NCBI GenBank assembly: GCA_949472775.1
Contig: CASWVG010000001.1
Span: 62,001-126,000, forward strand
Length of the DNA stretch: 64,000 bases
Reading direction: 5' to 3'
From: an uncultured Lachnospiraceae bacterium
GTDB taxonomy: Bacteria; Bacillota; Clostridia; Lachnospirales; Lachnospiraceae
Numbering within the stretch: the first letter of the stretch is position 1; each line of letters opens with the position of its first letter. The position numbers and the translations under genes were made by a program. Of the stretch, positions 2,165 to 62,624 are shown piece after piece. The notes beneath the pieces were generated by a model, which searched no databases, was not told the DNA's origin, and saw nothing but the letters and a program-made list of their open reading frames with translations.

Positions 2165-4072
2165 CTAATCTGTCCCTGTAATTTCATGACTTCGTTCATA
2201 CACCACAATATCTTTCACAACAGGCGTCGCAGTATCGAAGTATGTACCTTCTTCCGTATACCATCCGTCAAACATCCTGTCTCCGCTCAGAGTCCCCGGC
2301 TCCGCTCCTGGCATCCGCTCCATGCACTCCCCTTTTATCACACTCACATAATTGTGGGCAATTCCCTCTTCCGAAGCAAAACAAACCGTACAGATCTCTT
2401 TTTCTCCTGCCCATACTTCATCCAGAAACGGCTTGCGCAATGACAGGAAATCCCTTATTTTCTGCACTTCGCTGTCATAGTCGACCTGCTCCCCATAAAT
2501 CTCTTTCCATCTGATCAGATCCATATCCTTGGAGACGCTGATCTCTGATACATATTCGTCAATTTTTACGTCCAGGATCTTCTGCATATAGTCGGAGAAA
2601 AATTCTTCATAGCACGCTGACACCTCCTGCTGAAACTCGGAATGGGCATTCAGATGCCAGAAGAGCGTAGTCGGATCCGTACCTCTCTGCATCAGATAAC
2701 ACAGGTCCTGCGTCGACTCGTTGATCCCATCCAGATTGGCATAAGCCTTGTCATAATCCCACACGGGTCCGGCAAACAGTTTCCTGCTGACCGAATCATC
2801 CGGCTTGTAGAAAAAAGAACTGGTCGCTCCCGCACCGTTATTCTTACATAGCTCCTCAATAATATATTTTTGCGCAAAAGACCGCATATCTACATAATCC
2901 GAAAAATGCTTACCGCTTTCAGAATTCACGCCGTCCTCAGAAACAACGGCTTTCTCCAGGGCATTCACCATTCCACTGATATAATCCACCTGCGCTTCGG
3001 ATGCGTATGACGGCTCTTTGATTGTATACAGATCCTTTAATGTTTCTGTGTAAAACCCGCTGATTTCCTCGCGGTATTTTTCGGCCACATCCCGTTCCAG
3101 AAGATACCCTCCCGTGATGTCCGGCGGCTCGGCAGAAAGCACCACGCCTTTTTTTCTCTCTGTCTCAAAGCGTCCGCAGTTTTCAATCTCCCTGTTCCGA
3201 TTTTTATTCTCCGCCTCCAGATCAGCAATCGGCACTCTCTCCGGGTCAATCTCCACCTTCTCGCAGAGCTGGTACATGCCGTGGTATTTGTGATTCACGT
3301 AGAGGTCGACATACTGCGACTGCGGCGATCCCGCCATTCCTGCCGCCACACCCATATCATAAGTAATCTTATTGCGGATGTAGGAGCGGTCTTCCACATT
3401 GCTCAGAAGAATCCATTTGTCGGCGCTCCCCATGCCAAACAGATCCGCCCGGTTCTTCAGACGGATACCGTATGACTTCTTCGGGTAGGCCCAGGTGGAG
3501 TTACCCCTCCCGGAAATTCGGTCCAGTCTGTCCGTGCAGGCTACATTTCCGTCCGCATCAAACAAAACGATCCTTCCCTTTTCCGCATAATTTTTATCTG
3601 CGTCCAGATCCCTCATAGAACCGCTGTCCGTCTCCAGAAAGACAGCCGGAAGACTGGCAGAATGCATAATGACTATTTCCTGTTCTTCCAGCTTTTCTCC
3701 CCTCCTGCCGCAAAAATACATATCGTATTTTTCATCGTAATCCAAGGCGCCGATCTTCTCGCCACTGACCAGTGAAATCTCCCCTTTGTCGCCCGAAAAA
3801 ACCACCGTTTCCGCCCCGGAGAAGGAAATACTCACCTCATTTTTTTCCGCATAGGCAGGAAGAAACAGATAATTGATCTGATCCGCCGCGTCCGTAAAGC
3901 AGAATATTTCCTGTTCCGATGCGGAATTGCCCAGTACAAAACAGAGATTATTCATGTAGTCGCCGTCTCTCTGTATCCGGTTATCTTCCTCTGTTTCCAT
4001 TAAAATCACGGCCCCAATCAGGAAAATGACAAGAAAGCCAAGCATTCCCCACCGTTTTATCCTATATATCAT
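2165..4072 (-). CDS. CotH-family protein kinase, membrane-anchored, with InlB-like C-terminus
   Basis: A 635-residue protein with a single N-terminal membrane helix (about residues 9-25) and an extracytoplasmic body. The CotH fold is marked by SGRGNSTWAYPKKSYGIRLK near residues 187-206, the region LLSNVEDRSYIRNK, and GPVWDYDKAYAN around residues 435-446, which corresponds to the acidic active-site segment of CotH kinases. Bacillus CotH phosphorylates spore coat proteins. The last 65 residues (CFASEEGIAHNYV to DGWYTEEGTYFDTATPV) look like an InlB B-repeat or Listeria-Bacteroides repeat, a surface-adhesion-like fold. A paralogue with the same architecture is at 14920-16788. Its presence inside a glycan locus suggests phosphorylation of a surface glycan or an exported protein; that role is inferred. 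Confidence 0.87.
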   Translation of the reverse strand: MIYRIKRWGMLGFLVIFLIGAVILMETEEDNRIQRDGDYMNNLCFVLGNSASEQEIFCFTDAADQINYLFLPAYAEKNEVSISFSGAETVVFSGDKGEISLVSGEKIGALDYDEKYDMYFCGRRGEKLEEQEIVIMHSASLPAVFLETDSGSMRDLDADKNYAEKGRIVLFDADGNVACTDRLDRISGRGNSTWAYPKKSYGIRLKNRADLFGMGSADKWILLSNVEDRSYIRNKITYDMGVAAGMAGSPQSQYVDLYVNHKYHGMYQLCEKVEIDPERVPIADLEAENKNRNREIENCGRFETERKKGVVLSAEPPDITGGYLLERDVAEKYREEISGFYTETLKDLYTIKEPSYASEAQVDYISGMVNALEKAVVSEDGVNSESGKHFSDYVDMRSFAQKYIIEELCKNNGAGATSSFFYKPDDSVSRKLFAGPVWDYDKAYANLDGINESTQDLCYLMQRGTDPTTLFWHLNAHSEFQQEVSACYEEFFSDYMQKILDVKIDEYVSEISVSKDMDLIRWKEIYGEQVDYDSEVQKIRDFLSLRKPFLDEVWAGEKEICTVCFASEEGIAHNYVSVIKGECMERMPGAEPGTLSGDRMFDGWYTEEGTYFDTATPVVKDIVVYERSHEITGTD

Positions 4073-14919: not shown

Positions 14920-16788
14920 CTACTCCCATTTTGAATTATACAGTTCCATATCCTCATAAATGGGAATATAACTGCTGTAAGGCTCACCGCCCCGTCTGAA
15001 TGTCCACCCCTGATACACACTGCCGTCATAGTCCGGTACGTGTGAAAGCACCTCCCCGTCGGGAACTTCCATCTGCTCCACCACACCCTCATAGACAGAA
15101 AAGGTGACCTGATGCGTCCCCCCGTCTGCAGGCGCGGTAAAATTCCCGTATGGCACTCCCCATCTCGTACACAGGCAGTTTAAGCGGTTTGCGAGAAAGA
15201 ATCCGATATAGTTGACACTCGCGTCATAATTTGCGTATCGCGACAGCTCGTTCCCGGAAGCCCGGCTGTTTTCCCATCTGATATCATCCATCGCCACGGA
15301 AGCTCTGATCTGGTCTGCATACCTGTCAATTCCTGTGTCCAGAAGCTCCTCGAAAAAGGGCAGAACACCCGTATACTGCTCCACAATGCACTGATACAAT
15401 TCGGGCGTCTCATAAAGTTTCTGATACCAGTTAATGGCTATGGCAAGCCGCTCGTTATTGTTCACGATGGTTTCCCCATAATTCACATAAAAACTGTCGC
15501 CGCCATCCTCGCCAAACGCCCTGTCATAGTCCCAGGCAGGACCGGAATAGAGTTTATCATCGCCCTTTTCCTTATAAAAATACATACTGGTAGAGCCCGT
15601 ATCCACCTCCAGCGCAATCTCGTCCACCAGAAACCGTCCGGCAAAGCTCTCAAGATCCAGCTTCTCCCAGACCGCGGGATCCATGTTCTGTACAAGCGCG
15701 TCAATTTCTTCCACATAGTCCTGTATATAAGTCACCTGCTCCTTCGACGCATGCTGCGGCGCATTGATGGTAAAGAGGTCTCCCCTGGAAAGACGGAAAC
15801 CGCTCTCCTCCACTTCCCAGTGCTTCGGATGGTCCTTCTCGATCAGATAGCCCACATCAGTCTCAGATCCATTTTCCAGAAGAAATCCTTTCTGATCTTC
15901 TTCCACATAACTGCGCGCCGTCCCCTCCTTTATGGACTTGTTTTTTTGTTTATTTCTCTTCTCTGTGTCGTTTATATCGACACGTCCCGGTCCTACGGTA
16001 ACGGATTCCGTCAAAAGATAGATACCCCGATACTCTCCATTCAGATACAGGTCCACCCAGGTTCCCTGCGGGCTGTAATCCAGTCCCAGCTCCTGCATCA
16101 AGTCCATGGCAATTTTATTGTCCATCCTGCTGCCCTCATTCCAGAGAGCCAGAAGCCGCCACCGGTCGCTCTTCCCCAGACCGCACAGAGGCTGATCCTC
16201 CTTCAGCTTGAGGGCATAAGGTTTTTTCTCAGACTCCCAGGTAGAATTTCCTCTTCCGGATATTCTCGGCAGCCAGTCCTGATATTCCATCGTACCGTCC
16301 GCCTGCAGTACACAGATCTGCCCCGTCTCCTCGTTTTCCTTATCTTCGTGCAGATACTCCAGCCCACCGCTTGCAGTGTCGATAAACAGGGCCGGAATAT
16401 TCGCGGATTTCATAAAGCTGACCTCGCAGGTATGCGAATCATAAGAGCCGTCCGTGATCTGAAAAGACAGGCTGCGCCCTTCCTCCCATGAAAAGGCGTC
16501 TCCCTTCCCGTAAAGCTGCCCGTCTATCCTCACACTGCTCTCTCCCGTATCTCCCAGGCGGATCTTATGATGACCGACGCAGGATGGAAGGAAAAAATAT
16601 CCTGCCGTCTCTTCCCCATCCTGCCACAGAAACACCCGGTTCTCGCCCTGGGATGTCCGTACCGTGACACAGGGCTGCCCGTTCTCCACAGTGAGCAGCA
16701 CATTATTTTTATCTTTGAAGTACAGACAGCATACCGTAGCCACAACCGCCACGGCCAGCATAATGCCCATACAGGTTCTCTTGCGCAT
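14920..16788 (-). CDS. CotH-family protein kinase, membrane-anchored, with InlB-like C-terminus
   Basis: A 622-residue paralogue of the protein at 2165-4072. It has an N-terminal membrane anchor (about residues 8-23) and an extracytoplasmic CotH kinase region with SGRGNSTWESEKKPYALKLK near 178-197, YLNGEYRGIYLLTESV, and GPAWDYDRAFGEDGG near residue 420. The C-terminal 65 residues (HQVTFSVYEGVVEQMEVP to GWTFRRGGEPYSSYIPIYED) again resemble an InlB B-repeat. AAGGAG lies 8 nt before the ATG. Two CotH genes in one glycan locus argue that the kinase activity is part of surface assembly and not only spore coat formation; the substrate is unknown. Confidence 0.87.
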   Translation of the reverse strand: MRKRTCMGIMLAVAVVATVCCLYFKDKNNVLLTVENGQPCVTVRTSQGENRVFLWQDGEETAGYFFLPSCVGHHKIRLGDTGESSVRIDGQLYGKGDAFSWEEGRSLSFQITDGSYDSHTCEVSFMKSANIPALFIDTASGGLEYLHEDKENEETGQICVLQADGTMEYQDWLPRISGRGNSTWESEKKPYALKLKEDQPLCGLGKSDRWRLLALWNEGSRMDNKIAMDLMQELGLDYSPQGTWVDLYLNGEYRGIYLLTESVTVGPGRVDINDTEKRNKQKNKSIKEGTARSYVEEDQKGFLLENGSETDVGYLIEKDHPKHWEVEESGFRLSRGDLFTINAPQHASKEQVTYIQDYVEEIDALVQNMDPAVWEKLDLESFAGRFLVDEIALEVDTGSTSMYFYKEKGDDKLYSGPAWDYDRAFGEDGGDSFYVNYGETIVNNNERLAIAINWYQKLYETPELYQCIVEQYTGVLPFFEELLDTGIDRYADQIRASVAMDDIRWENSRASGNELSRYANYDASVNYIGFFLANRLNCLCTRWGVPYGNFTAPADGGTHQVTFSVYEGVVEQMEVPDGEVLSHVPDYDGSVYQGWTFRRGGEPYSSYIPIYEDMELYNSKWE

Positions 16789-41505: not shown

Positions 41506-43458
41506 TCATAATTTTATATTTGAATGTTTCCACCACTCCTGGAACATCAGAATGTACCAAATCTGCGGCTTCCAGGCATTTTTCATTATATAATCATCCC
41601 ATAATTTTTTTACACTTTTCGCCTCAAACAGTCCCTGCTCCTCCAAAAAAGATGGCGAGAGAAGACTCTCTGCCCACTCCCGCAGCTCCTTCTCCTTCAG
41701 CCAGCGATGAAGTGGAATGGAGAACCCTTTTTTGGGCCGCTCCATCAATTCGCGGGGCACATAACGGTAAAGAATGTCCCTCAGAATCTTTTTGCTGACC
41801 CCTCCGCCCTGCCGGAATGACAGGGGAAGCGTCCACGCAAATTCAACCACATCCTTATCCAGCATCGGCACACGTGTCTCCAGTGACACCGCCATCGCCG
41901 TCCTGTCCACTTTATTTAAAATATCGTCCGGATGATACATCAACAGATCCATCAGCATCAGATTGTGCTGTCCGTCTTCCAGAAGTCCTACAGGATAAGT
42001 GTCCATCCACGTTTCTCCCGCTCTGCGGGCCTGTATGGCATCCCAGGCGCCAAAGCCGGGCGCGTTTCCCGTCACCCCGCGTCTGACCAGATTAAGCCCC
42101 TCGCCGATCTCAGAACGCAGATACATATCCTCTATCGACTTTGCTCCCAGAAGTCTGCCCCTGGTCGCCAGCGAAGCTTTCCCCTGCGCGGCAAGCCCAA
42201 GCATGGCGCTTGCGGGCATACGGAGAAATCCCGGTATTTTCCTCACCTTATTCCAGATACGGTCAATAGAATAATAGGTGTTATATCCGCAGAACAGCTC
42301 ATCCCCGCCGTCGCCGCTTAAGGATACCGTCACATGCTCCCTCGTGATCCGGCTTACGAGATAAGTGGGAATCTGGGAGGAATCCGCAAACGGTTCCCCG
42401 AACATCCCGGCGAGCTTCGGTATCACGCTCTTCGCATCCTCCTCCGTAATATAGACCTCCGTATGTTCCGTCCCCAGGCAGGCGGCAATCTCTTTCGCCA
42501 CCGGCGCCTCGTTGTACTGCTCCTCCCACATGCCAACGGTGAACGTCCTGACCTTCTGTGCGCTCTGTGCCTGCATCAGCGCTACCACCGTGCTGCTGTC
42601 GATTCCGGCAGACAGAAAAGCACCCACAGGCACATCCGCCACCATCTGTCCCGCGATGGATTCCCGCAGAAGACGCTCCAGCTCCCCTGCCGCTTCCGCC
42701 TCACTTCCCCGAAAGAGATTTTGCTGTCCAATAACAGCCGTTTCGGTCATTGACCAGTAGCTCTCGACCTCCGGTTTGTTATATGGTGATTTAATCTTTA
42801 ATATTTTCCCCGGTTCCAGCTTCCAGATCCCGCGGTACACAGTATATGGGGCCGGAATATAACCATAACGCATGTAATCGCCCATAATATCTACGTTGAC
42901 CGAATTGGTAAATCCATCCAGCGAGGCGATGGAACCGAGGTCTGAGGCGAAAACAAAGCTGCCATCATTTTCCCTCTTATTTATATCATCTTTTAATATC
43001 CCATAAAATAACGGCTTTTCTCCAATTCTGTCCCGCGCGAGAAATAACGCATGTTCTTGCCTGTCGAACAACGCAATCGCAAACATTCCCTTAGCCATTT
43101 TCAGTGTGTCTGGCAAACCGTACGCAGCAATCGACTCCAGAAGCGTCTCCGTGTCGGAAGTCCCCCGGAAGGCAGGCAGCCGTCCCTCCGCCAGCAGTTT
43201 TCTCCGGATGGCAGTGTGATTATATATCTCCCCGTTATAGGCAATCACATATCTGCCGTCGCGGGATACCATCGGCTGCGCACCCGCGGGCGACAGATCC
43301 ACGATCGAAAGACGCCTGTGCCCAAGAACCACCCTCTGATCATCCGAAGCCCACACCCCCGAGGCATCCGGCCCCCGATGGTACATCCGATCGCACATCC
43401 GCCCGATGTTCTTCTTCCAGTCCCCCCTGAAATTACAAAAACCCGCGATTCCACACAT
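41506..43458 (-). CDS. Asparagine synthase (glutamine-hydrolysing) family amidotransferase
   Basis: A 650-residue AsnB-type protein. The N-terminal glutaminase domain begins MCGIAGFCNF with catalytic Cys2 and continues YHRGPDASG and VIAYNGEIYN. The synthetase domain has VGAFLSAGIDSSTVVALM as the pyrophosphate loop, with SAG in place of the usual SGG, then VSLSGDGGDELFCGYNTY. In polysaccharide loci such enzymes often amidate uronic acids of the repeat unit instead of making asparagine; that role is inferred from context. A second AsnB-type gene is at 46102-48009. Confidence 0.92.
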   Translation of the reverse strand: MCGIAGFCNFRGDWKKNIGRMCDRMYHRGPDASGVWASDDQRVVLGHRRLSIVDLSPAGAQPMVSRDGRYVIAYNGEIYNHTAIRRKLLAEGRLPAFRGTSDTETLLESIAAYGLPDTLKMAKGMFAIALFDRQEHALFLARDRIGEKPLFYGILKDDINKRENDGSFVFASDLGSIASLDGFTNSVNVDIMGDYMRYGYIPAPYTVYRGIWKLEPGKILKIKSPYNKPEVESYWSMTETAVIGQQNLFRGSEAEAAGELERLLRESIAGQMVADVPVGAFLSAGIDSSTVVALMQAQSAQKVRTFTVGMWEEQYNEAPVAKEIAACLGTEHTEVYITEEDAKSVIPKLAGMFGEPFADSSQIPTYLVSRITREHVTVSLSGDGGDELFCGYNTYYSIDRIWNKVRKIPGFLRMPASAMLGLAAQGKASLATRGRLLGAKSIEDMYLRSEIGEGLNLVRRGVTGNAPGFGAWDAIQARRAGETWMDTYPVGLLEDGQHNLMLMDLLMYHPDDILNKVDRTAMAVSLETRVPMLDKDVVEFAWTLPLSFRQGGGVSKKILRDILYRYVPRELMERPKKGFSIPLHRWLKEKELREWAESLLSPSFLEEQGLFEAKSVKKLWDDYIMKNAWKPQIWYILMFQEWWKHSNIKL

Positions 43459-43545: not shown

Positions 43546-44706
43546 CTACTCCTCTTCCACAATCTCCGCGTAATCCTCGTTCGCAATACGCTCTCTGATG
43601 GTTCTGACAGCCTCATCCTGCCTTGTTTTCCACAGCTCATAAGATTTATCCCATGAATCATAAGAAGCGTCTCCACGGCGGTCCGGGAGCGCGTAGCGGG
43701 CCAGCAGATACTCTTTCAGAAACGCCGTACACTTCTCCGCGCCAACCGCATTGGTGTGGCTGCCGTAATCTGCGAAATCTTCCTCAAAAACAATGCCGAT
43801 CTCATCATAATAATCGTTCATATTCAAAAATCCATAGCCACTCTCCTCCACGATTGCCGCCATATAGTTAAACATCTGCTGTTCCTCCAGAGATTCCCCG
43901 TAGGGAGAAACAATAAACAGCGCCTCCTGCCCGTTTTCCTTTAACCAGGCAAGCAGATCCCGCAGATACGTCTCCTGCTCCTCCGGGATCGCCAGAACGC
44001 CTTCTGCGCCGCCGCAGGCAGGCTGTGGCTGCGGTCCGACCTCATCCCGGAAGGTATATCCCTTTAACGGATGGCTGTGGCGATAGAACATATTAGCCCA
44101 CTCGGAGGGAAGCACCAGCATTTTCCAGTTCGTGTGATACTTCATAATGTCAATGTAGTAGCTAAGCCGCCCCTCCCCGTCATTTTCCGGCACCAGCCCC
44201 TGTATTGTTCTGATCCGCTGGCGGGAATACTTCAGATTGTCTGTCACACCGCGGGTATACGCCATATTTTCCATCAGCCCCGCCTCTTCCATTGTGAACA
44301 TGCGCATCTCAAAAATATAGAGCGCGGGCGACTGGCTTTTCTCTGCCTCCTCCGCCAGATACCGCATGGCGGCAGGACGCTGCACATTGGTCGAGAGCGG
44401 ATACATCGCAATCCCCGCCTCCCCCCACAGCTTAGGCGCGGCATAATAGGGAAATACCGGGCTGGAACCGATCATCACAACATCCAGCGAATCTTTCTTT
44501 TCCGCGTAAAAGCCTGCAAAACGATCCTTCACATCGCCGTTGGTCCTCACCATATAGGACACTGGCAGAAGAATGAAAAAAAACAACAGCACAAAAACAG
44601 CCGCCTGCAGCGCTTCACGCCGCTTTTCGCCGGGTTCCTTTTTTCCAGGCGTTTCCTGCACCGAATGCCGGGATATCACTTCTTCCGTCTGTCTAACCTT
44701 ATCCAC
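43546..44706 (-). CDS. Membrane-anchored SGNH-like hydrolase/acyltransferase
   Basis: A 386-residue protein with one N-terminal membrane helix (about residues 35-52) and an extracytoplasmic domain. DVVMIGSSPVFPYYAAPKLW resembles the serine block of SGNH proteins such as DltD and AlgJ/AlgX, and FADYGSHTNAVGAEK near residue 315 provides an aspartate and histidine in the expected C-terminal block. It probably transfers or removes an acyl group on the exported glycan. The start is a GTG with AAGGAG 7 nt upstream. Distant in sequence from the SGNH protein at 55081-56157. Confidence 0.75.
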   Translation of the reverse strand: MDKVRQTEEVISRHSVQETPGKKEPGEKRREALQAAVFVLLFFFILLPVSYMVRTNGDVKDRFAGFYAEKKDSLDVVMIGSSPVFPYYAAPKLWGEAGIAMYPLSTNVQRPAAMRYLAEEAEKSQSPALYIFEMRMFTMEEAGLMENMAYTRGVTDNLKYSRQRIRTIQGLVPENDGEGRLSYYIDIMKYHTNWKMLVLPSEWANMFYRHSHPLKGYTFRDEVGPQPQPACGGAEGVLAIPEEQETYLRDLLAWLKENGQEALFIVSPYGESLEEQQMFNYMAAIVEESGYGFLNMNDYYDEIGIVFEEDFADYGSHTNAVGAEKCTAFLKEYLLARYALPDRRGDASYDSWDKSYELWKTRQDEAVRTIRERIANEDYAEIVEEE

Positions 44707-46101: not shown

Positions 46102-48009
46102 TCACTTGTTACTCTGTTCGTGGAAATTTGTATACCACTGTTGGAAAACGAAGAAGGCCCAGATCAGCCCGGAATAATTTTCACCCGTCCCGCGCCCCCT
46201 GTCTCCTGTCTCAAGGTAGCTCTTAACCATCCTGGACACATACGGTTCATCGAATAAATTCTGGCGTTCTATTACGTCATGGTCCGCATAATATAACAAC
46301 TGTTCTTTAAGCGGTCCCCTGAGCCATTTGTCGAGTGGAACGCCGAAGCCTTTCTTCGGGCGCTCCAACAGCTCTCTCGGAATATAATCGTAGGCGATCT
46401 CTTTCAGGATATGCTTTTTGTTCCCCGCTGCAAATTTATACTCATGGGGAATCCGATAGGAAAAGTCCATCACATCCGGGTCAAGGATGGGGCATCTGGC
46501 TTCCAGTGAATATTTCATGGATGCGCGGTCCATCTTGCAGAGAATATCCCCCGGCAGATAAGTGTCCATATCAAGAAGCATGCGGCAAATCTGCCAGTCC
46601 CTGACCGGATAACTGCTCTCCACTGGATAGTTCACCGGCAGCGCGCGTTTCCCGGAAGGCATTCCGCCCACCATGGCGCACGCCATCCCCGGGTAGTTTC
46701 CCGCGCCAAACTGGGTCTTCGTCTCCCGGTCTCTGTTCCCGGCGATCACACGCACTTTAAAGGGAAGCTTCTTCTCCAGACCAAACCGTCTGATACCCGG
46801 CATGTTGCACAGATCATGTACCAGACCGCCCATCGTATCCAGTTTCTGCGCCTGCGCCACCTTATCATATATATTGTAGCCACAGTAGAACTCGTCACCG
46901 CCGTCGCCCGAAAGTGCAACTGTCACCTGCTCTCTGGCAAGCTTACAGACAAGCATCGTCGGAATCTGTGAGGGGTCGGCAAAGGGTTCGTCATAATATT
47001 CCGGAATGCTCTCCACCATCCGCAGCATGTCAGCCTCATCGATCATCAGCTCCGTATGGGCCGTTCCCAGGTAATCCGCCACCGCTCTGGCGTAGGGCGC
47101 CTCATTGTAGCTCTCCTCGTTAAACCCGATAGAAAACGTTTTAACAGGCTTCCCGGAATTTGCCTGCGCCATCGCCGTAACCAGCGATGAGTCATAACCG
47201 CCGCTCAGAAAAACGCCAAGCGGTACATCCGCAATCATACGCAGCGACACGGCACGCTGCAGGAGCGCCTTCAGCCGCTCTTTCGACTCCTCATAGCTCC
47301 TGACAGGCTGTCCCGACGCATCCGCATATGCCTCCCGCACACTCCAGTAGCTGCGTGTAGTTATCTTTCCCCCATGAAACTTTAAAACCGTGCCCGGTTC
47401 CAGCTTGTACACGTTCTCATAAACGGTCTCCGGTGCATTGATATACTGCTGAAAGAGATAGCGCGAGAGCACACCCCTGTCTATCTCCGCATGAAAATCC
47501 GGACAAGCCATGATCGGCTTTAACTCCGACGCAAACACAAGTTCCTCCTGCTCGTACCAGTAATAGAGCGGCTTCTTGCCGATGCGGTCACGGATCAGAT
47601 AGACCGCCTCCTCCTCCCTGTCAAAAAGAGCGATGGCAAACATCCCGTTAAACCGGTTCAAACAGGAAATGCCCCATTTTAAATAGGCGGCTATGATAAC
47701 TTCCGTATCGCAGTCCGACCGGAAGGGATAGTCCGCCAATTCTTCTCTCAATTCTCTGAAATTATAAATTTCACCGTTATAGACCACAACAACCCGGCCA
47801 TCCACCGAGTGCATGGGCTGATGTCCCAGCGCCGAAAGATCCATAATGGCGAGCCTCCTCTGCGCAAGCCCCACCCGGTAGCCGCCCGCCATCCCGAAAA
47901 ACTCTTCCCCGCTGTCGTCGGGACCCCTGTGATACATCGTATCATTCATCTTCTTAAGCTGCCCGGGCGAAACCTCCCGCCTTCTAATGTATCCACAAAT
48001 CCCGCACAT
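46102..48009 (-). CDS. Asparagine synthase (glutamine-hydrolysing) family amidotransferase
   Basis: A 635-residue AsnB-type protein. Glutaminase domain: MCGICGYIRRRE with Cys2, YHRGPDDSGEEF, VVVYNGEIYNF. Synthetase domain: LGVFLSGGYDSSLVTAMA (intact SGGxDS pyrophosphate loop) and VALSGDGGDEFYCGYNIY. Starting at 48009 with AAAGGAG 6 nt upstream places the catalytic cysteine at position 2, which the family requires; the open frame to 48081 runs through a hairpin-rich spacer and is rejected. Likely to amidate a sugar acid in the glycan. A paralogue lies at 41506-43458. Confidence 0.93.
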   Translation of the reverse strand: MCGICGYIRRREVSPGQLKKMNDTMYHRGPDDSGEEFFGMAGGYRVGLAQRRLAIMDLSALGHQPMHSVDGRVVVVYNGEIYNFRELREELADYPFRSDCDTEVIIAAYLKWGISCLNRFNGMFAIALFDREEEAVYLIRDRIGKKPLYYWYEQEELVFASELKPIMACPDFHAEIDRGVLSRYLFQQYINAPETVYENVYKLEPGTVLKFHGGKITTRSYWSVREAYADASGQPVRSYEESKERLKALLQRAVSLRMIADVPLGVFLSGGYDSSLVTAMAQANSGKPVKTFSIGFNEESYNEAPYARAVADYLGTAHTELMIDEADMLRMVESIPEYYDEPFADPSQIPTMLVCKLAREQVTVALSGDGGDEFYCGYNIYDKVAQAQKLDTMGGLVHDLCNMPGIRRFGLEKKLPFKVRVIAGNRDRETKTQFGAGNYPGMACAMVGGMPSGKRALPVNYPVESSYPVRDWQICRMLLDMDTYLPGDILCKMDRASMKYSLEARCPILDPDVMDFSYRIPHEYKFAAGNKKHILKEIAYDYIPRELLERPKKGFGVPLDKWLRGPLKEQLLYYADHDVIERQNLFDEPYVSRMVKSYLETGDRGRGTGENYSGLIWAFFVFQQWYTNFHEQSNK

Positions 48010-48028
48010 ACAATACTCCTTTATATCC

Positions 48029-48114
48029 GAGAATGCCTGCCTTTGGCATTCTCGCACATAAGACTTAGAAGTTCCTGGCATCGCGTCCTATGGCACGATG
48101 TCTTTAGAACTTCT
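48029..48114 (-). repeat. Hairpin-rich spacer before the asparagine-synthase-type gene
   Basis: A perfect 9-bp inverted repeat (48029-48037 with 48045-48053, loop 7) and an 8-bp inverted repeat (48067-48074 with 48107-48114), enclosing CATCG and CGATG, fill the space between two genes. The 16-mer at 48106-48121 recurs with one mismatch at 61693-61708, also just after a gene end. This suggests a dispersed palindromic element; function unknown. Confidence 0.45.
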
Positions 48115-49001: not shown

Positions 49002-50507
49002 CTACTGCGCCCGTCGCACAGACTTTTTCCCGTAATAGGATGCAATCCCCTGATTCACCCAGCCGGTTTCGTCTTCATCAAAATAAAGACACTCAAAATC
49101 TTCAATATACTCCGGCATTTCCAGTTCCACGTCCTCCTCCGGACAGGTTTCCAGATACTCATAGAGAGCGGCGCATTTTTCATAATAATCCCGGTAGCTT
49201 CCGTTGTGCACATAGCGCGCCACCCTGTAAAGAGGCAGTTCCTCCACAGACAAAGGCGTGACAATCAGCACCGCCAGAAAAATGTAGAGCAATACCGCTG
49301 CCGTACGGCCATCCGACGGCAGGCCCCAAAGCCTGTGACCGCAGACGCCCAGAAACAGCGCCAGATTTAAGAGCGCTATCACCATAGATGTGTCTATTAT
49401 AAAATAACATCTGTTTGGCACATAATACCCGCCATACCCGAGAGCTACCGGGAAATACGCCACTGCTCCCGAAAGAAGCGCAAATGCGGTGGCAATGCCA
49501 TATTCACGAATCGCAATCCTGCATCTTCCCGACAGATACACACCGGCCACAATCAGCAAAAGAAACGCCAGACCAAGCATTGTCTCCCGGAACAACCTGC
49601 CCGACTCCTCCACAAACATACGCGCCATATAGACAAGAGCCTGCCCGAAATGCAGACCTGCTCCCGCCGTCCCGTCATGTCTGGAAAAGTTACCGGGTGC
49701 GACCGCGTTGATCAGCGCGCCTGCGAACCCCGCCGCAAAAACAACCAGATTACACCAAAGCAGCTTACCTGCAGAGAGAAAAAATACCACCGTCAGCACT
49801 AACGTCACATAGCATCCCACACCTGCAACCGCCAGAGAACCACCGGAAGAAAAGAACAGAAGAACCGCCGCAATGCCCGCACAGACTTTTTTTCTTCGGG
49901 GATTTTCCTCTTTATTCATAAGAAGAAACAGCGTCAGTGAAATGAGCAGAAGCGAAAAAGGCATACTGTATGCCACCGCCCCGGAAAACCAGAAATAAAT
50001 CTCCGCATAGACATCCGCGTTCACCACGGTCAGAAAGAAAAGTGTAAGAACCGCAAGCCGCAGAGAAACAAGGCTCTTTGCCCCGCCCGCCGCTGTTTCG
50101 CGTGACGCGTCAGTCTCTTTGCCGCGCAATCCCGTCCCTGCCAGGAAAAAAGAAAGCCCTACCCACAAAAGCGCCGCCAGAGAACCGAGAAACAGCAGCG
50201 CGTTTCCCACCATCACAGCCCTGAGCTGCGGCAGACCAAAATTGTTGATCGGCGAGAGAAACGCTTGCAAAAACATGGAAAACCAGGTTCCCTGCCAGTC
50301 CATATACAGATCCTTTACATACAGAAGGGACGCCACAAAATACTCCGGCAGCGGGACATGAAAAGCCCCAACCCGCACACCATGGGTAAAATCATCTCCG
50401 CTGATCACCGTATAACCCGCGCCTGTAGAGAAAACAAGAATTGTGGACACAATTATAATAACGCATGCTATTGAAAACAGAATTTCCGCTGTCTTTTTTC
50501 CTTTCAC
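49002..50507 (-). CDS. DUF6056 family multi-pass membrane protein (GT-C-like)
   Basis: A 501-residue paralogue of the protein at 34569-36095, with about 12 helices. The first outer loop has VISGDDFTHGVRVG followed by MDWQGTWFSMFLQAFL, the same two motifs as its paralogue, and the C-terminus ends GWVNQGIASYYGKKSVRRAQ. A polar insert (GLRGKETDASRETAAGGAKS) lies between helices 3 and 4. The start is taken as GTG at 50507, with GGAAGGAG 7 nt upstream and just past the MBOAT stop; the frame is open to 50567. A GT-C-type sugar transfer is possible but unproven. Confidence 0.8.
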   Translation of the reverse strand: MKGKKTAEILFSIACVIIIVSTILVFSTGAGYTVISGDDFTHGVRVGAFHVPLPEYFVASLLYVKDLYMDWQGTWFSMFLQAFLSPINNFGLPQLRAVMVGNALLFLGSLAALLWVGLSFFLAGTGLRGKETDASRETAAGGAKSLVSLRLAVLTLFFLTVVNADVYAEIYFWFSGAVAYSMPFSLLLISLTLFLLMNKEENPRRKKVCAGIAAVLLFFSSGGSLAVAGVGCYVTLVLTVVFFLSAGKLLWCNLVVFAAGFAGALINAVAPGNFSRHDGTAGAGLHFGQALVYMARMFVEESGRLFRETMLGLAFLLLIVAGVYLSGRCRIAIREYGIATAFALLSGAVAYFPVALGYGGYYVPNRCYFIIDTSMVIALLNLALFLGVCGHRLWGLPSDGRTAAVLLYIFLAVLIVTPLSVEELPLYRVARYVHNGSYRDYYEKCAALYEYLETCPEEDVELEMPEYIEDFECLYFDEDETGWVNQGIASYYGKKSVRRAQ

Positions 50508-50532
50508 ACCGATGCTCCTTCCGTTCAGCACA

Positions 50533-52113
50533 CTAGAAACTTTGATACAGAAACGCCGCCGTATCATAACTTCCGCCGTAAATCCCCGTAACCAGCAAAA
50601 GCAGCACCACGCCGTAATAACAGCACCACCTCAGCGCCATGGGGCTGTCCGCAATCATCCGACGCACGTCTCTCCCCTTTTCCTCCCAGACGGAAACCGC
50701 AAGCCACAGAAGGCATGCCGCCGCCAGCAGCAAAAAGCCGTACCTGCTGAGCCCATAGTCTGTCACGCTAAGGATTCCCTCTTTCAGCCGGAAGTCTGTG
50801 AAAAGCGCCCGGTAAACCTCACCCGCCTGGGAAAGACTCTCCGAACGGATCAGCACATCCGCCACAAACACAATCGCCCACGTTCTTGCCATGGTAAAGT
50901 ACCCGTAAGCTTTTCCCTCTCTGATATGAAGCTTTTCCTTCCATATACTATACTGCGATTCCAATACGAGGGAAATGCACATGATCACGCCGTAATAGAC
51001 GCCCCACAAAATATAGCTCGCCGTTCTGCCGTGCCACATGCCCGTCAGCAGCCAGACAAGCATTGTTCCGATGATGCCCGTCACATGCTTTCCCATGCGG
51101 GGCATTTTTTTCTTCGCCGCCTTGCCGATCTTGCGCCCCGTACCCGACATGACAAAGGAAAACATCACATAGTCCTTAAACCACGTCCCGAGGGTGATGT
51201 GCCATCTGCGCCAGAATTCCGCCACTGATTTTGAAAAATAAGGTCTTTTAAAGTTCTCCGGCAGGTAAATATCGAAGGTTTCGCTGATGCCAAGCGCCAT
51301 ATCCATATATCCCGAAAAATCCGCGTAGAGCTGCAGCATATAGAGAACAACCGCCAGCCCGTAAATACTGCCTGGCAGCCCTCCTGCCACATTGCCGAAC
51401 ACATTTTCCACAAAGAGATTGATTCTGTCTGCAATCACCAGTTTCTTGAAAGCGCCCCAGACAAAGCGCTGCACACCGAACAGCATTCTCCCGTAATCAA
51501 AGACATGTCCCCTCTCAAGTTCCTCCTGCAATTTCGCATAGCGGTTAAAAGGCCCCTGCGTAATCGCCGGAAAATAAGTAAGAAACAGAAACAGTCTGAA
51601 CGGATTTTCCTGTGCCTTGCACTGTTCCCGCCCCACGTCCACCACATAGCCAATCGCCGTCAGTGTGTAAAAGGATATCCCAAGAGGCATAACCACGCGC
51701 GCAAAGAATGCGTCGCCCACCGGCGTGGTCAGCCCAAGCTCCTGCAGAAAGGGCAGGATCACAACCATATACTTCGTACAGAGCAATATGCCGAGACTGT
51801 ACACAAAATAAAGGATTTGAATGCGTTTTCTGCGCCTCTCAAATCCCAGCTTCAACGTCTTTTTCCGCTCTTTATCCGCAATATCCGAAAGCGCCTTTTT
51901 CTGTTTTTCCAGACTGCGCGCCAGATAAATACCGCACCCGTAAGTACCTGCACCTGTAAGAAGAATCCCAACCGGAATCCCCCCCGTACCAGCCACGTAA
52001 AACAGTCCGCTTGCCACGGCAAGAACCACCCACTGCCGTTTTTTCGATACCAGGTAATAAAGGGCGAAAAAAATCACCCACATTATGACGAAATTGGTTG
52101 ATAAGAGTTTCAT
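50533..52113 (-). CDS. MBOAT family O-acyltransferase (DltB/AlgI-like)
   Basis: A 526-residue membrane-bound O-acyltransferase. Characteristic segments: LGISFYTLTAIGYVVDVGR, FFPAITQGPFNRY (written FLTYFPAITQGPFNRYAKL), FWRRWHITLGTWFKDYVMF, and the catalytic-histidine region TGMWHGRTASYILWGVYYG around residues 345-365. DltB takes a thioester-bound D-alanine from DltC across the membrane; AlgI moves acetyl groups. The carrier protein gene is only 12 bp upstream, so a DltB-like use of the carrier-bound acyl group is likely. GAGGAG precedes the ATG. Confidence 0.92.
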   Translation of the reverse strand: MKLLSTNFVIMWVIFFALYYLVSKKRQWVVLAVASGLFYVAGTGGIPVGILLTGAGTYGCGIYLARSLEKQKKALSDIADKERKKTLKLGFERRRKRIQILYFVYSLGILLCTKYMVVILPFLQELGLTTPVGDAFFARVVMPLGISFYTLTAIGYVVDVGREQCKAQENPFRLFLFLTYFPAITQGPFNRYAKLQEELERGHVFDYGRMLFGVQRFVWGAFKKLVIADRINLFVENVFGNVAGGLPGSIYGLAVVLYMLQLYADFSGYMDMALGISETFDIYLPENFKRPYFSKSVAEFWRRWHITLGTWFKDYVMFSFVMSGTGRKIGKAAKKKMPRMGKHVTGIIGTMLVWLLTGMWHGRTASYILWGVYYGVIMCISLVLESQYSIWKEKLHIREGKAYGYFTMARTWAIVFVADVLIRSESLSQAGEVYRALFTDFRLKEGILSVTDYGLSRYGFLLLAAACLLWLAVSVWEEKGRDVRRMIADSPMALRWCCYYGVVLLLLVTGIYGGSYDTAAFLYQSF

Positions 52114-52125
52114 ATACTCCTCACA

Positions 52126-52356
52126 CTATTCTTCCACCAACTGTGTCACCAGTTCAATGATCGCCTCTTTGTTCCTGAAATTCTCCGCCACCACGTACTT
52201 GGCATCAATCTCGATATCGAAGACATCCTCCAGCTCACTCACAATATTGATCACTGTAAAGGAGTCGATCACGCCTTCCTCCATCATATTGTCGCCCGTG
52301 TAATCGAGGGCTTCCTCGCAGTACTCTTCCAATATTTCCAATACTTTTTCTTCCAT
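52126..52356 (-). CDS. Acyl/aminoacyl carrier protein (DltC-like)
   Basis: A 76-residue acidic carrier protein: MEEKVLEILEEYCEEALDY, then GVIDSFTVINIVSELEDVFDIEI with the serine of DSF as the expected phosphopantetheine attachment site at about residue 38. Size and surface match DltC and other stand-alone carriers. Position between the formyltransferase and MBOAT genes, next to a DltA-like enzyme, indicates that it carries the activated acyl or aminoacyl group. The ATG at 52356 has AAAGGA 8 nt upstream; an open frame to 52395 is rejected. Confidence 0.92.
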   Translation of the reverse strand: MEEKVLEILEEYCEEALDYTGDNMMEEGVIDSFTVINIVSELEDVFDIEIDAKYVVAENFRNKEAIIELVTQLVEE

Positions 52357-52426
52357 CGTTCCTATCCTTTCTGTTATAGTATTGTACACCTGCATGTGCA
52401 GATTCTCAAATCCTTATTTTGCCATA

Positions 52427-53284
52427 TCATAACATTCGATATTTTATTTTCAGCAAATCCTTGTCCGCTAACGGCAGATACAGCATGTCCGCCCCCTCTT
52501 TTTTCTTTTCCGGGGCAACCTTCCGATACCGTAAAATTTCCGCCCGTTTTCCCGCAACTTCCATCTGCAATGGGGGAAATATGCCGCTTTTCCCGTAATC
52601 CACGCTGCGAAGCAGGCGGTACAGCTTCTCCGGCGGCTCGTTTAAGTCAAGAAATCCGTCTCCAGGTATCTCGGTCGAGCGGTACATCCGTCTCTCCGGT
52701 GAAAACCCCTGCGGTCTCGCAACAGCGTTTTCCTGCAAAACCCCGTCAAAGCATTCACAAAAACCATCGTATGCCAGATCCATCAGCGTTTCCGTCAGTT
52801 CGTACGCCTTCGTATCGGGACCGATCCTGCAGCTTTTCTGGAGAATGATATTGCCTTCGTCCACCCCCGCCGTCACATAGTGCCAGGTGATGCCTGTCTG
52901 CGCCTCACCCCGATAAATAACCCAGCTTGGCGCGTTTCTTCCGGGATAATCCGGCAGAAGCGCATTGTGAAAATTGATGATCGTGATATTTTCCCGCTCC
53001 ACCACTGCCGCTGGAAACAGAAAATTGTTGCTGGCGGAGACAATCAGCGTTTTTTCCTGTATTTCACCGAAATACCGCCCAAGCTCCCGCTTATCCGGCA
53101 TGGACACGAAGGGGATACCCCGTTCCTCACAAATTTGTTTCGTGACCCCAAGCGCGTGAGGCTCATGCTCGATAAATTCCAGCCTATAGCCATAGTCCAC
53201 CCGCCTGTCGTCCGTATATTTTAATATCCCGCCGGTGGCTTTTCCATAACCAATTACCACAACCCGCCGAAAATCTGACCTCAT
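52427..53284 (-). CDS. Formyltransferase family protein (formyl-THF-dependent)
   Basis: A 285-residue member of the methionyl-tRNA formyltransferase fold: VVVIGYGKATGGIL at the N-terminus, LIVSASNNFLFP, and the catalytic block INFHNALLPDYPGRNAPSWVIYRG with the asparagine and histidine, followed by GVDEGNIILQ supplying the aspartate. Such enzymes formylate a primary amine: aminosugars (WbtJ, FdtF type) or, in the linear gramicidin synthetase, a carrier-bound amino acid. It lies between the DltA-like and carrier genes, so the second option is attractive. ATG at 53284 with AAGGAG 4 nt upstream. Confidence 0.87.
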   Translation of the reverse strand: MRSDFRRVVVIGYGKATGGILKYTDDRRVDYGYRLEFIEHEPHALGVTKQICEERGIPFVSMPDKRELGRYFGEIQEKTLIVSASNNFLFPAAVVERENITIINFHNALLPDYPGRNAPSWVIYRGEAQTGITWHYVTAGVDEGNIILQKSCRIGPDTKAYELTETLMDLAYDGFCECFDGVLQENAVARPQGFSPERRMYRSTEIPGDGFLDLNEPPEKLYRLLRSVDYGKSGIFPPLQMEVAGKRAEILRYRKVAPEKKKEGADMLYLPLADKDLLKIKYRML

Positions 53285-53383
53285 ACAGCTCCTTTTCGTA
53301 GCGCATGTTATTTTATCTGCTGCCGATGCTTCTTCCCACGACATTCACAAGACGCGCTCTCTTCGCTTTCCGCCGCTTCCCTG

Positions 53384-55003
53384 CTATTTTATATATTCCT
53401 TCAGCTTCACCCGGTCAATCTTGCCGTTGGCGTTGATCGGCATTTTCTCCACCCGGATCACCTTATTCGGCAGCATATACTCCGGCACAAGATGGGCAAT
53501 CTTTTCGTTGATATACGCCTTGTCCAGTTCCTCCTCGATAAAAAGCACAATCTTCTGCCGCTTCTCGTCATAGAGACAGCAGTTTAGGGAAATGTCAGGC
53601 AGCGAGGATACCGCCGTCTCAATCTCTCCCAGCTCGATTCTGTGCCCCATATGCTTAATCTGGAAATCCTTCCTCGAAAGATAGATAATCTCTCCGCGCT
53701 CGTTGTATTTCACCACATCGCCGGTCCGGTAAATCAGCTCCGGGACCGCCTGGTTCAGCGGGTTTTGCACAAACGCTTCTAACGTCTTCTCCGGGTTCCT
53801 GTAATATCCCATGGACAAGGATGTGCCTCTGACGCAGAGTTCACCCGGTTCCTCCCCCGTAACCAGTTCGTTTTTCTCATTTAACACGAGAATGTCTGTA
53901 TTGGACATGGGAAAGCCGATGGGGAGCGGCTCCTCGTCCGAAAATTCACGGTCTACAATATAATAAGTACAGGCGTCAGTGATCTCCGTGGGACCGTACA
54001 GGTTCGCGTACTGCACCTGCGGCAGGAATTTCCGCCACACGTTAAGCTGCTTGTTCGGCATTACCTCGCCACAGAACAGCACCCGCCGGAGCGTGTCCGA
54101 CAGATCCACGTTTTTGAACGCTTTCAGCTTCGCCACCACAATCAGCGCCGACGGCACCCAGAAAATGGTATTGATCTTCTTTTCCTTCAGATATTCCAGA
54201 AGAGGCACCGGCTGGGCAAAGAGCGTTTTCGGAATAATATAAGTGGTCGCGCCTGTCTTCAGGGTGCTGTAAATGTCCAGAATGGAATTGTCAAAGTAGA
54301 ACGGCGCCTGGTTGCCGAAACTGTCCTTCTCCGTGATGGCAAAGGTCTCCGTCACCCAGTCTATGTAGTCAATCACCGCCCGGTGGTTGATCGTCACGCC
54401 CTTTGGCACGCCCGTGGAGCCTGATGTAAAGAGCACATACAGAAGATCGGTGTCAATGCCGCGCGCGCTCGCCGCCTCCAAAGCCGCCTCCCGCGCGGAC
54501 CCGGTTTCTTTCGTATTTGCAGACAGGCATCCATTCCGCCCATCTTTTCCCTCCGGAGACGAAGAAAACTTCTCCCTTCCGCCATCCTGCCGTTCCGCCG
54601 CCTGTGCATCCACTGCCAGCACATCCTCCAACAGAAGGAACTCTCCCTTATAATCATACGCCAAAAAGACTTCCCGCAAAGCCCCTGCCGTTATCACCAC
54701 GGCGGGTTCCAGTACTTCCAGAATCTTATTGACACGGCTCCCCGGCATGTCCACGTCGATGGGGGAGTAAAAGTTGCAACTGTAAGCCGCCCCCATAAAG
54801 GAGACAAGCACGTCCACGCCCTTTTCCAGAAAAACAGCGACAGGCTTTTTAAACAGCCCTCTCGCCGTCAGTTCACAGGCGATGGCTCTCGCCTGCGCCC
54901 GCAATTCGCCGAATGTAATTTCCTTTTTCTCATCCGCAAAGGCTGTCTTGTCGGGAAAACGCGCCGCCGTCTCGTCCAGCCAGTAGGTAACGTTCGCTCT
55001 CAT
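53384..55003 (-). CDS. DltA-like amino acid adenylating enzyme
   Basis: A 539-residue AMP-forming enzyme that should activate an amino acid with ATP and load it on the carrier at 52126. LLYVLFTSGSTGVPKGVTINH near residues 190-210, NQAPFYFDNSILDIYSTLKTG, RRVLFCGEVMPNKQ, NLYGPTEITDACT, YRTGDVVKYNERGEIIYLSRKDFQIK and the C-terminal INANGKIDRVKL lysine are all present. The FDxS...DIY and FCGE blocks closely follow DltA, including the cysteine linked to D-alanine selection in Bacillus DltA. A polar insert of about 45 residues precedes the P-loop and makes it longer than DltA (about 500). ATG at 55003 with GAGG 5 nt upstream. Confidence 0.9.
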   Translation of the reverse strand: MRANVTYWLDETAARFPDKTAFADEKKEITFGELRAQARAIACELTARGLFKKPVAVFLEKGVDVLVSFMGAAYSCNFYSPIDVDMPGSRVNKILEVLEPAVVITAGALREVFLAYDYKGEFLLLEDVLAVDAQAAERQDGGREKFSSSPEGKDGRNGCLSANTKETGSAREAALEAASARGIDTDLLYVLFTSGSTGVPKGVTINHRAVIDYIDWVTETFAITEKDSFGNQAPFYFDNSILDIYSTLKTGATTYIIPKTLFAQPVPLLEYLKEKKINTIFWVPSALIVVAKLKAFKNVDLSDTLRRVLFCGEVMPNKQLNVWRKFLPQVQYANLYGPTEITDACTYYIVDREFSDEEPLPIGFPMSNTDILVLNEKNELVTGEEPGELCVRGTSLSMGYYRNPEKTLEAFVQNPLNQAVPELIYRTGDVVKYNERGEIIYLSRKDFQIKHMGHRIELGEIETAVSSLPDISLNCCLYDEKRQKIVLFIEEELDKAYINEKIAHLVPEYMLPNKVIRVEKMPINANGKIDRVKLKEYIK

Positions 55004-55080
55004 CTTATCCTCATTTCCAAACATTTTTGCAGCAGACTTCGCAGCAAATGCAAAGTCTCTGGCCGAACTGTTACGCCATA

Positions 55081-56157
55081 TCACCTCGCCGGAATCACAG
55101 GATAATAAGTGTCCGCCGTCTTTTCTGTCTTTACATGGTACACGTCGTACAGATCCGTCATCTCAAGTCCGCATCCCGCCGGATCGTAGGAACCGTAGAG
55201 TGCAAGCCCACTCTTAGCCGCAAGATTTTTCACCTTTTCCTCCACTTCCAGCGTAATCTGAAATGCCTCCTCAGATTCTATGTAATTATACATCATGGGC
55301 GAATAGGGTGGCAAGTATAAAATGACCTCCACGCCCGCATCCTGCAGATGCGAAATCAGCCGAGAAAGCCGCTGAAAATGCTGCTCGTCTATCTCCTCGT
55401 AATCAGTCATGCGGTATACCACATGCTCTTCCATCGCCTGCCGCGTCATCGCCTCCACGTCTGCCGGATCCACCTCGCGCAGCTCCCGCTGATAACTGAC
55501 ACTTCCGTCATAATGTTTGAGATACTTCTCCGTCTCCCACTCATCCGTATACTTTACGGCAAACCGCTTTCTGTCTGGAAGAAGGGTGATATTGTAGCGG
55601 AAATAGTCCAAAGAGAGGGCTTTTGAAAATTCCCGGCGCGTATCTTTATGGGGGGGCGCAAACTCCGGCGACAGTTTCCCGTCCAGAGTCAGCGACATAT
55701 AGTTTTCGTAACTTTCCAGTTCCCTCCACTTCTCGTTATCGTGGCTTTTGTTAAAAAGAAAAGCGTCCACGCCGATCACAACCGTCTCCGGCAGCTTCTC
55801 CTGCGCGGTCAGGATGCCTGTCACCGCAAGCAGATCATAAATCGTAGCCTCCGACAGCCCCGCATTGTAAAAGGAATCCGTTCCGAACATGGTATGATCG
55901 AACGTATACACCCGGCTGGAGCCGAGAACCATGACCTGGGGCGCTTCCTCCATCCCCTTCAGGCGTGCTGCCAGAAGGTTCCTGTCGTTGTAGTCAGAAT
56001 CCTCCAGACCTTCCACGTTTTTCCCCGCCGCCATCTGCGCGGCAATTTCATCATAAGTGACCCGCAGAAGAGCGTAGGAATCTATATACCAATTAACCCA
56101 TCCTATAAAGAGAAGGAGCGGCAGGAGGAATACCGCCGCTTTAAGCCATTTTTTCAT
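55081..56157 (-). CDS. Membrane-anchored SGNH-fold protein (DltD-like role)
   Basis: A 358-residue protein with one N-terminal helix (about residues 7-24) and an extracytoplasmic SGNH-type domain: VMVLGSSRVYTFDHTMFG with the nucleophile serine near residue 80, VVIGVDAFLFN, VEVILYLPPYSPMMY, and DLYDVYHVKTEKTADTY near the C-terminus giving the Asp-x-x-His pair. It is the first gene of the adenylation, formyltransferase, carrier and MBOAT set, the place a DltD-type final acyl transferase would fill. Sequence similarity to DltD itself is low. GAGGA lies 8 nt before the ATG. Confidence 0.78.
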   Translation of the reverse strand: MKKWLKAAVFLLPLLLFIGWVNWYIDSYALLRVTYDEIAAQMAAGKNVEGLEDSDYNDRNLLAARLKGMEEAPQVMVLGSSRVYTFDHTMFGTDSFYNAGLSEATIYDLLAVTGILTAQEKLPETVVIGVDAFLFNKSHDNEKWRELESYENYMSLTLDGKLSPEFAPPHKDTRREFSKALSLDYFRYNITLLPDRKRFAVKYTDEWETEKYLKHYDGSVSYQRELREVDPADVEAMTRQAMEEHVVYRMTDYEEIDEQHFQRLSRLISHLQDAGVEVILYLPPYSPMMYNYIESEEAFQITLEVEEKVKNLAAKSGLALYGSYDPAGCGLEMTDLYDVYHVKTEKTADTYYPVIPAR

Positions 56158-61643: not shown

Positions 61644-61708
61644 TGCGAAGGCTTAGCACTTTTTCGCAAAGCAGCCCTTGCCGCGAGTGATCAGAAGTTC
61701 TTCTCACG
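61644..61708 (-). repeat. Hairpin-bearing spacer, dispersed repeat candidate
   Basis: TGCGAA (61644-61649) and TTCGCA (61663-61668) form a short stem, and the 16-mer at 61693-61708, which covers the stop region of the formyltransferase gene, matches 48106-48121 in 15 of 16 positions. Both copies lie directly after a gene end and are followed by further hairpins and then the next gene. Possibly degenerate members of one intergenic repeat family. Confidence 0.35.
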
Positions 61709-62624
61709 CTAAAATATCCCCCGCTTCCAACGTCAGACTGCTCTCGTAGCGGTCGATCAGAAGGGATCCATCCACCGTGCGCACCACAGGCTTCCCGTCA
61801 AATACGTCGATCACCTCGCCAGGCGCATAGGCAGAAAAATCAATCATCTCGTCAAAGGGATGCGCCTCCCAGACACGCACCTCCTGCTCTTTGCAATAGG
61901 CAAACGCGCCCGGAAAAGGCGCCGCCACACCGCGGATCAAATTATAAATATCGCGTGTTCTTTTATGAAAGTCAATTTTTCCGTCCGCTGCCGTGCGCTT
62001 CTCATACCATGAATCAAAATCCCTGGAATCCGTGCGGATCTCGATGTGCCCGCTCTCATAGGCGGCAAGCAGCCTGCGGATCAGCCGTTTTGAGCAGATC
62101 ATATTTTTATACTGCGCTGTGCGGATATCGTCGTGGGGCGTGATGGAAAACATTTCCGTGGCAAACACATTAGGGCTGTCCGCCTTCTCGTCATAGCGGA
62201 ACAGATTCAGATTGAAGCGTGTGTCCCCCAGAATCACGGACCAGTTTAAGGGCGAGCGCCCCCTGCCGAAGGGCAGATAACCGCTGTTGCCGTGGAACCC
62301 GTAAATGCCGTACCGGAAACAGTCCAGCACAGAAGCCGGAATCAGCCGCTGCCATCCCATGGAAATACCGACATCAAACTCATTCTCCCGCATCAGCTTC
62401 TGTGTCTTCTCATCTGTCAGGAAATAGCTGTCCGCCTCGTGCACCGGAATCCCGTACTTTTCCGTCAGAACCGACAGCCCTTTATACCCCGAAACCTGGT
62501 TCTTCTTCGTCACCTCCGGGCTGATCGTGATGACCAGATCCACCGGACAGATTTCTTTCTGTATAAAATCCACAATATTCTCGGACGTATCTTTCACCCC
62601 AAAAAGCACAACCTTATACTTCAT
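61704..62624 (-). CDS. Sugar-type formyltransferase family protein
   Basis: A 306-residue formyltransferase with a catalytic N-terminal domain and a C-terminal domain similar to methionyl-tRNA formyltransferase and ArnA. VVLFGVKDTSENIVDFI starts the Rossmann region; ISMGWQRLIPASVLD and IYGFHGNSGYLPFGRGRSPLNW carry the asparagine and histidine; NLFRYDEKADSPN carries the acidic residue. DIYNLIRGVAAPFPGAFAYCKEQEVRVWEA is the usual start of the C-terminal domain. It probably N-formylates an amino sugar on a nucleotide carrier. No aminotransferase for making such a sugar is in the window. Confidence 0.88.
   Translation of the reverse strand: MKYKVVLFGVKDTSENIVDFIQKEICPVDLVITISPEVTKKNQVSGYKGLSVLTEKYGIPVHEADSYFLTDEKTQKLMRENEFDVGISMGWQRLIPASVLDCFRYGIYGFHGNSGYLPFGRGRSPLNWSVILGDTRFNLNLFRYDEKADSPNVFATEMFSITPHDDIRTAQYKNMICSKRLIRRLLAAYESGHIEIRTDSRDFDSWYEKRTAADGKIDFHKRTRDIYNLIRGVAAPFPGAFAYCKEQEVRVWEAHPFDEMIDFSAYAPGEVIDVFDGKPVVRTVDGSLLIDRYESSLTLEAGDILA

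Follow-up and report, generated by a model that had tools for sequence, protein, structure and literature searches.

What would a formyltransferase do between the genes for an adenylation enzyme and a carrier protein, in a cassette that also encodes an MBOAT and an SGNH-type acyltransferase? This question is raised by a stretch of 64,000 nucleotides (here called the window) from an uncultured Lachnospiraceae bacterium (assembly GCA_949472775.1, contig CASWVG010000001.1). The probable answer is that the formyltransferase (FT) N-formylates an amino acid bound to the carrier protein (CP), where the adenylation enzyme (A) would have loaded it, and that the MBOAT and SGNH proteins then export the product onto a surface glycan. 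The presence, residue conservation and linkage of all the parts of such a pathway can be read from the sequence, and the linkage of the cassette genes is strong.

Five open reading frames (ORFs), all intact and on the minus strand (50533-56157), follow each other in the order SGNH, A, FT, CP and MBOAT; this is the order given in an earlier note on this DNA, and family searches agree with the names that the note had used. They encode an SGNH-type acyltransferase (55081..56157), proposed to catalyze the final step onto the glycan; a discrete amino-acid adenylation enzyme (53384..55024; ORF opening at 55084); FT, with a carrier-bound amino acid as its proposed substrate (52427..53284; ORF opening at 53344); CP (52126..52356; ORF opening at 52395); and an MBOAT acyltransferase with its own putative C-terminal acyl-shuttle motif, FLYQSF, containing Tyr523 (50533..52113). 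Based on the upstream sequence and the points where homologues begin, the true start of FT is most likely 53284, at the ATG after AAAAGGAG, that of A is likely 55024 or 55003, and that of CP is likely 52356. With these revised starts, 56 or 77 bp separate SGNH from A, 99 bp A from FT, 70 bp FT from CP, and 12 bp CP from MBOAT.

The catalytic residues that the earlier note had seen in each protein hold up in alignments of FT, CP, MBOAT and SGNH. In A, an Asp and a Lys are present that we take to be the alpha-amine binder and the catalytic residue, respectively. FT (Formyl_trans_N, 3.7e-20 in Pfam) carries N124, H126 and D162, presumably its catalytic triad, which are invariant in 16/16 sequences (here and below, the window protein is included in such counts), and its structure model has a pLDDT of 90.2. 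CP exceeds the Pfam cut-off for PP-binding only just (4e-4) and matches the NCBIfam DltC model below cut-off (3e-10); its G41, D44, S45 and F46 (numbering of the long ORF) are invariant in 14/14 sequences, Ser45 presumably being the phosphopantetheine attachment residue. MBOAT matches Pfam MBOAT at 4.6e-9 and the DltB model at 3e-46, the latter below cut-off (158 bits vs 375). H361, F521 and Y523 are invariant in 13 of 13 sequences, and for H361 and Y523 a catalytic role is assumed from family knowledge. The tail FxYxx[FY], with F or Y at the final position, occurs in all 13 MBOATs of this wider set, and F[LM]YQSF ends all 21 of the 23 related-locus MBOATs that are complete at the C-terminus. 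In the SGNH protein, for which DUF1574 is a weak Pfam match below cut-off (1.3e-4), S81 (in a GxS motif), D338 and H341 are invariant in 21/21 core sequences and are taken to be catalytic.

The adenylation enzyme belongs to the AMP-binding family (1.2e-68 in Pfam) and exceeds the cut-off of the NCBIfam amino-acid adenylation model TIGR01733 (329 bits vs 317). It was part of what the earlier note had called the complete teichoic-acid D-alanylation toolkit, a label that the data do not support: A scores 306 bits against the DltA model TIGR01734, where 560 are required, it shares 27-31% identity with five DltA-model relatives, and its pocket code, DNLWLCLDAK, differs in 5/10 positions from that of the nearest of these (DLMSLCTVAK in L126, itself under the cut-off of the DltA model); moreover, the shuttle motif sits on the MBOAT itself. 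A search of the own genome with TIGR01734 gave no match above cut-off.

A pattern scan of genome contigs with the window FT yielded 23 related loci, among them 18 from Lachnospiraceae and one from Ruminococcus, with FTs that are 53-88% identical to that of the window. The order SGNH-A-FT-CP-MBOAT is held in all 23 as far as the contigs extend: FT, CP and MBOAT are found in 23 loci each, and SGNH and A in 22 each, the contig of L014 beginning at FT. Two genes are partial, with only the end of SGNH in L015 and only the start of MBOAT in L011; L011 and L014, being from a single isolate, are not independent. L023 alone has an extra ORF (506 amino acids), located between FT and CP. Since the loci have further glycan genes in common, their conservation, taken alone, could reflect common descent of a single locus.

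More distant relatives were sought with a profile of 21 FTs, which matched 9 of 299 genomes of the family at E up to 1e-30 and 2 of 398 genomes of a phylum sample at E up to 1e-28, the own genome being included in both counts. The nine new FTs obtained in this way (eight from the family sample and one from the phylum sample) are 24-35% identical to the window FT. Seven of the nine loci have A and CP within ~10 kb, and five of these seven have an MBOAT as well: four (L045, L046, L047 and L048) in the order A-FT-CP-MBOAT, and L049 in the order MBOAT-A-CP-FT. The other two, L053 (A-A-FT-CP-ketosynthase III, with one A gene split across two overlapping frames) and L044 (A-CP-ketosynthase III, with FT ~7 kb further on), contain ketosynthase III-like genes, and at neither locus was there a match to MBOAT. 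In L051 (6300-10048), an AMP-binding enzyme, CP, a class II synthetase-like protein and FT stand in a row; the synthetase-like protein finds its best NCBIfam match in an amino acid--[acyl-carrier-protein] ligase, at 157 bits where the cut-off is 357, and the row may be a formyl-aminoacyl-carrier unit with a tRNA-synthetase-like loading enzyme. Lastly, at L050, where no A or CP was seen, FT adjoins a convergent SGNH-MBOAT pair, and a different contig of the same genome (L136) bears an A-CP-MBOAT-SGNH cassette; this FT is sister to that of L048 in the FT tree (99/91). Directly upstream of A, L047 (11827-12861) and L048 (5840-6931) encode a possible PP-loop ATPase whose N-terminus is Cys-rich and whose Pfam matches are weak only.

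Taken over the nine distant loci, a carrier plus an amino-acid loader is the commonest partner of FT (8/9), followed by a nearby MBOAT (6/9), and distant loci in which no MBOAT was found still pair FT with carrier and loader, which indicates that FT tracks carrier plus amino-acid loading. As a control, neighbours within a radius of ~1.5 kb were compared: A is found in 6/9 distant loci, but not one of the 28 weaker formyltransferase matches (L056-L083) has A, CP, MBOAT or SGNH nearby. As the gene order recurs in the 23 related loci and partly in the nine genomes with far more divergent FTs, the cassette is not a product of chance. The module thus withstood a search for co-occurrence of the five families in other genomes, the lack of which the earlier note had named as grounds for giving it up.

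The following route is proposed for the cassette. A would adenylate an alpha-amino acid and load it onto the phosphopantetheine on Ser of the separate CP, after which FT would formylate the alpha-amine of the CP-bound amino acid, using 10-formyl-tetrahydrofolate. MBOAT would take the formyl-aminoacyl group from CP on the cytosolic side and pass it to Tyr523 of its FxYxxF motif on the outer side; the Ser of SGNH would then accept the group and hand it on to a hydroxyl group on the polysaccharide whose synthesis the surrounding locus encodes. The glycan at the cell surface would end up with an N-formyl-aminoacyl ester. A discrete formyltransferase, adenylation and carrier set feeding MBOAT and SGNH, as suggested in the earlier note, is the best reading of the gene linkage; we infer each catalytic step, as well as the formyl acceptor, the amino acid and the acceptor glycan.

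The alternative that survives best, albeit as an unlikely one, is plain aminoacylation of the glycan by A, CP, MBOAT and SGNH, with a nucleotide amino-sugar destined for that glycan as the substrate of FT. Some observations favor this alternative. By profile, the top solved relative of FT is WbkC, a nucleotide-sugar formyltransferase (124 bits); the modelled fold of FT does not discriminate, being similar across several kinds of formyltransferases. Within the family, cassettes that lack FT are common, which makes FT look like an added step, and DegT-type aminotransferases, which we take to be nucleotide amino-sugar synthesis enzymes, are encoded elsewhere on the contig. However, the DegT-type gene of the own genome that is closest to FT lies 18 kb away, and two queries for such aminotransferases (E up to 1e-4) gave no match in the window, in any of the 23 related loci or in eight of the nine distant ones, which leaves L053 as the only one of these 32 loci with a match. 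FT also keeps company with A and CP, or with CP and another loader, where MBOAT or glycan genes were not found among the scanned neighbours: those of L045 and L047 comprise sensor-kinase, oxidoreductase, glutamine-synthetase and binding-protein genes and no glycan genes. A glycosyltransferase gene is found near the cassette of L046. This gene context makes it unlikely that nucleotide amino-sugars are the sole substrates of FT.

The window has a second formyltransferase-like gene (61704-62624, minus strand), which is a separate candidate for a role in sugar chemistry, though its product lacks the catalytic Asn. This protein groups with ArnA, but its branch is very long; it has Gly at the position of the Asn, does not contain the usual DxG motif, and may not be a formyltransferase at all. 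The gene is present in 10/23 related loci, where flanks are often too short.

In a tree of 33 rows, the 15 FTs group together weakly (85/81). The plasmid homologues make up a second clade (100/99), and a third (100/98) contains ArnA, Fmt, FT2 and others; a long-branch row from the own genome, C73, is placed beside the FT clade at 89/67. When compared with plasmid records, the window FT retrieved ArnA in all 25 matches listed of 362 records, and for the distant FT of L046, 7 of the 15 matches listed (90 records) are annotated as nonribosomal peptide synthetase (NRPS) or amino-acid adenylation. Of five plasmid matches of the L046 FT that were retrieved, three were scanned, and each has an N-terminal formyltransferase domain followed by adenylation, carrier and condensation domains. 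The NRPS proteins L117, L118 and L121, from rhizobial and Mycetohabitans plasmids, start with a formyltransferase domain whose motif is TWH or SWH, unlike that of LgrA; this domain is followed by ~280 to 430 residues in which Pfam finds nothing, and then by A-PCP-C.

Formylation of a carrier-bound amino acid also has to be weighed against formylation at another stage, i.e., of the free amino acid or of a later intermediate such as the acyl-Tyr or the glycan ester. The same glycan product would result, and sequence does not reveal in what order the steps occur, yet this variant is improbable: because the pocket of A keeps the Asp that presumably binds the free alpha-amine, A should not accept an amino acid that is already formylated, and FT has a modelled soluble formyltransferase fold and presumably uses a cytosolic cofactor. 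Least credible of all is a formyl-aminoacyl carrier that feeds a small secreted compound or glycolipid while MBOAT and SGNH use another acyl donor, for although the ketosynthase III-like loci L044 and L053 suggest that the carrier may serve other acceptors, A, FT, CP and MBOAT are co-oriented in the window with gaps of 12 to 99 bp and stand together in related loci.

Formylation on the carrier followed by export to the glycan remains the preferred reading. A broader proposal joins two statements, namely that a discrete formyl-aminoacyl carrier unit serves at least two transfer machines (MBOAT/SGNH, which would decorate surface polymers with esters, and, at other loci, ketosynthase III-like enzymes) and that N-formyl amino acids constitute an unrecognised class of surface esters in Lachnospiraceae that, in contrast to D-Ala, is neutral; for the two together, the chances appear evenly balanced.

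The cassette is set in a large glycan locus with a sugar transferase, a WecG/TagA-type transferase, glycosyltransferases and two asparagine-synthase-like genes. The latter encode possible amidotransferases (46102-48081 and 41506-43458, both on the minus strand), the former of which is found downstream of the cassette in 17/23 related loci. A separate DUF6056 gene (49002-50567) lies within the span of 49002 to 56157 that the earlier note had assigned to the module; it is not counted here, leaving the five genes at 50533-56157. Of the 23 related loci, 12 contain it, and two of the other 11 contigs stop before reaching it. The same locus encodes a second SGNH-like protein (43546-44706, minus strand) without any Pfam or NCBIfam match, whose profile is the best scorer for the MBOAT-adjacent SGNH proteins in L049 and L050, and two CotH kinase-family proteins (2165-4072 and 14920-16788, both minus strand).

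Among known systems, the nucleotide-sugar N-formyltransferases (WbkC, ArnA, QdtF, VioF) resemble FT in the catalytic triad and in a fold that is alike among several kinds of formyltransferases; the gene context of FT differs in consisting of an adenylation enzyme and a carrier and not of amino-sugar synthesis genes. The joint use of formyltransferase, adenylation and carrier is a feature of the F-A-PCP initiation module of LgrA and of NRPS F domains in general. In contrast to LgrA, the cassette proteins are separate ORFs without a condensation domain, the product would go to MBOAT, and FT is not closest to the LgrA F domain by score, falling into its own weak clade. The cassette may thus work like an LgrA-type module without being a member of that fused NRPS class. 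According to excerpts of a 2022 review, F domains formylate after loading, and carrier-bound N-formylation by them is known for only three NRPS products (PMC8949500); if the proposed route is true, such chemistry enters envelope biology.

The Dlt system (DltA, DltC, DltB, DltX, DltD) likewise combines a discrete adenylation enzyme, a carrier, an MBOAT, an SGNH protein and an acyl-Tyr shuttle motif. The cassette differs from it in the additional FT, in the pocket code of A as compared with the nearest DltA-model relative, in having FxYxxF on the MBOAT itself, and in gene order, which is A-FT-CP-MBOAT in the cassette and A-MBOAT in the five DltA-model relatives. Dlt-type D-alanylation reduces the negative charge of the envelope. 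A formyl cap would remove the charge of the amine and, by chemical reasoning, should shield the amino-acid ester from self-cleavage, so that a similar toolkit would leave a mark that is neutral and stable and serves another purpose; whether host formyl-peptide receptors sense formylated amino-acid groups on such bacteria is a speculative question. The MBOAT-SGNH pairs for O-acetylation (PatAB; alginate, cellulose) share with the cassette the C-terminal FxYxxF of MBOAT and the partner SGNH protein. As described in excerpts of PMC12148441, the Tyr of this motif was demonstrated to bear the acetyl group in PatA, DltX is reported to shuttle D-Ala on Tyr in the same manner, and other MBOAT/SGNH pathways have no carrier protein and use acyl-CoA as the donor. 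In the cassette, the acyl group would come from A, CP and FT instead and, as its sequence indicates, a carrier protein is joined with a shuttle motif built into the MBOAT.
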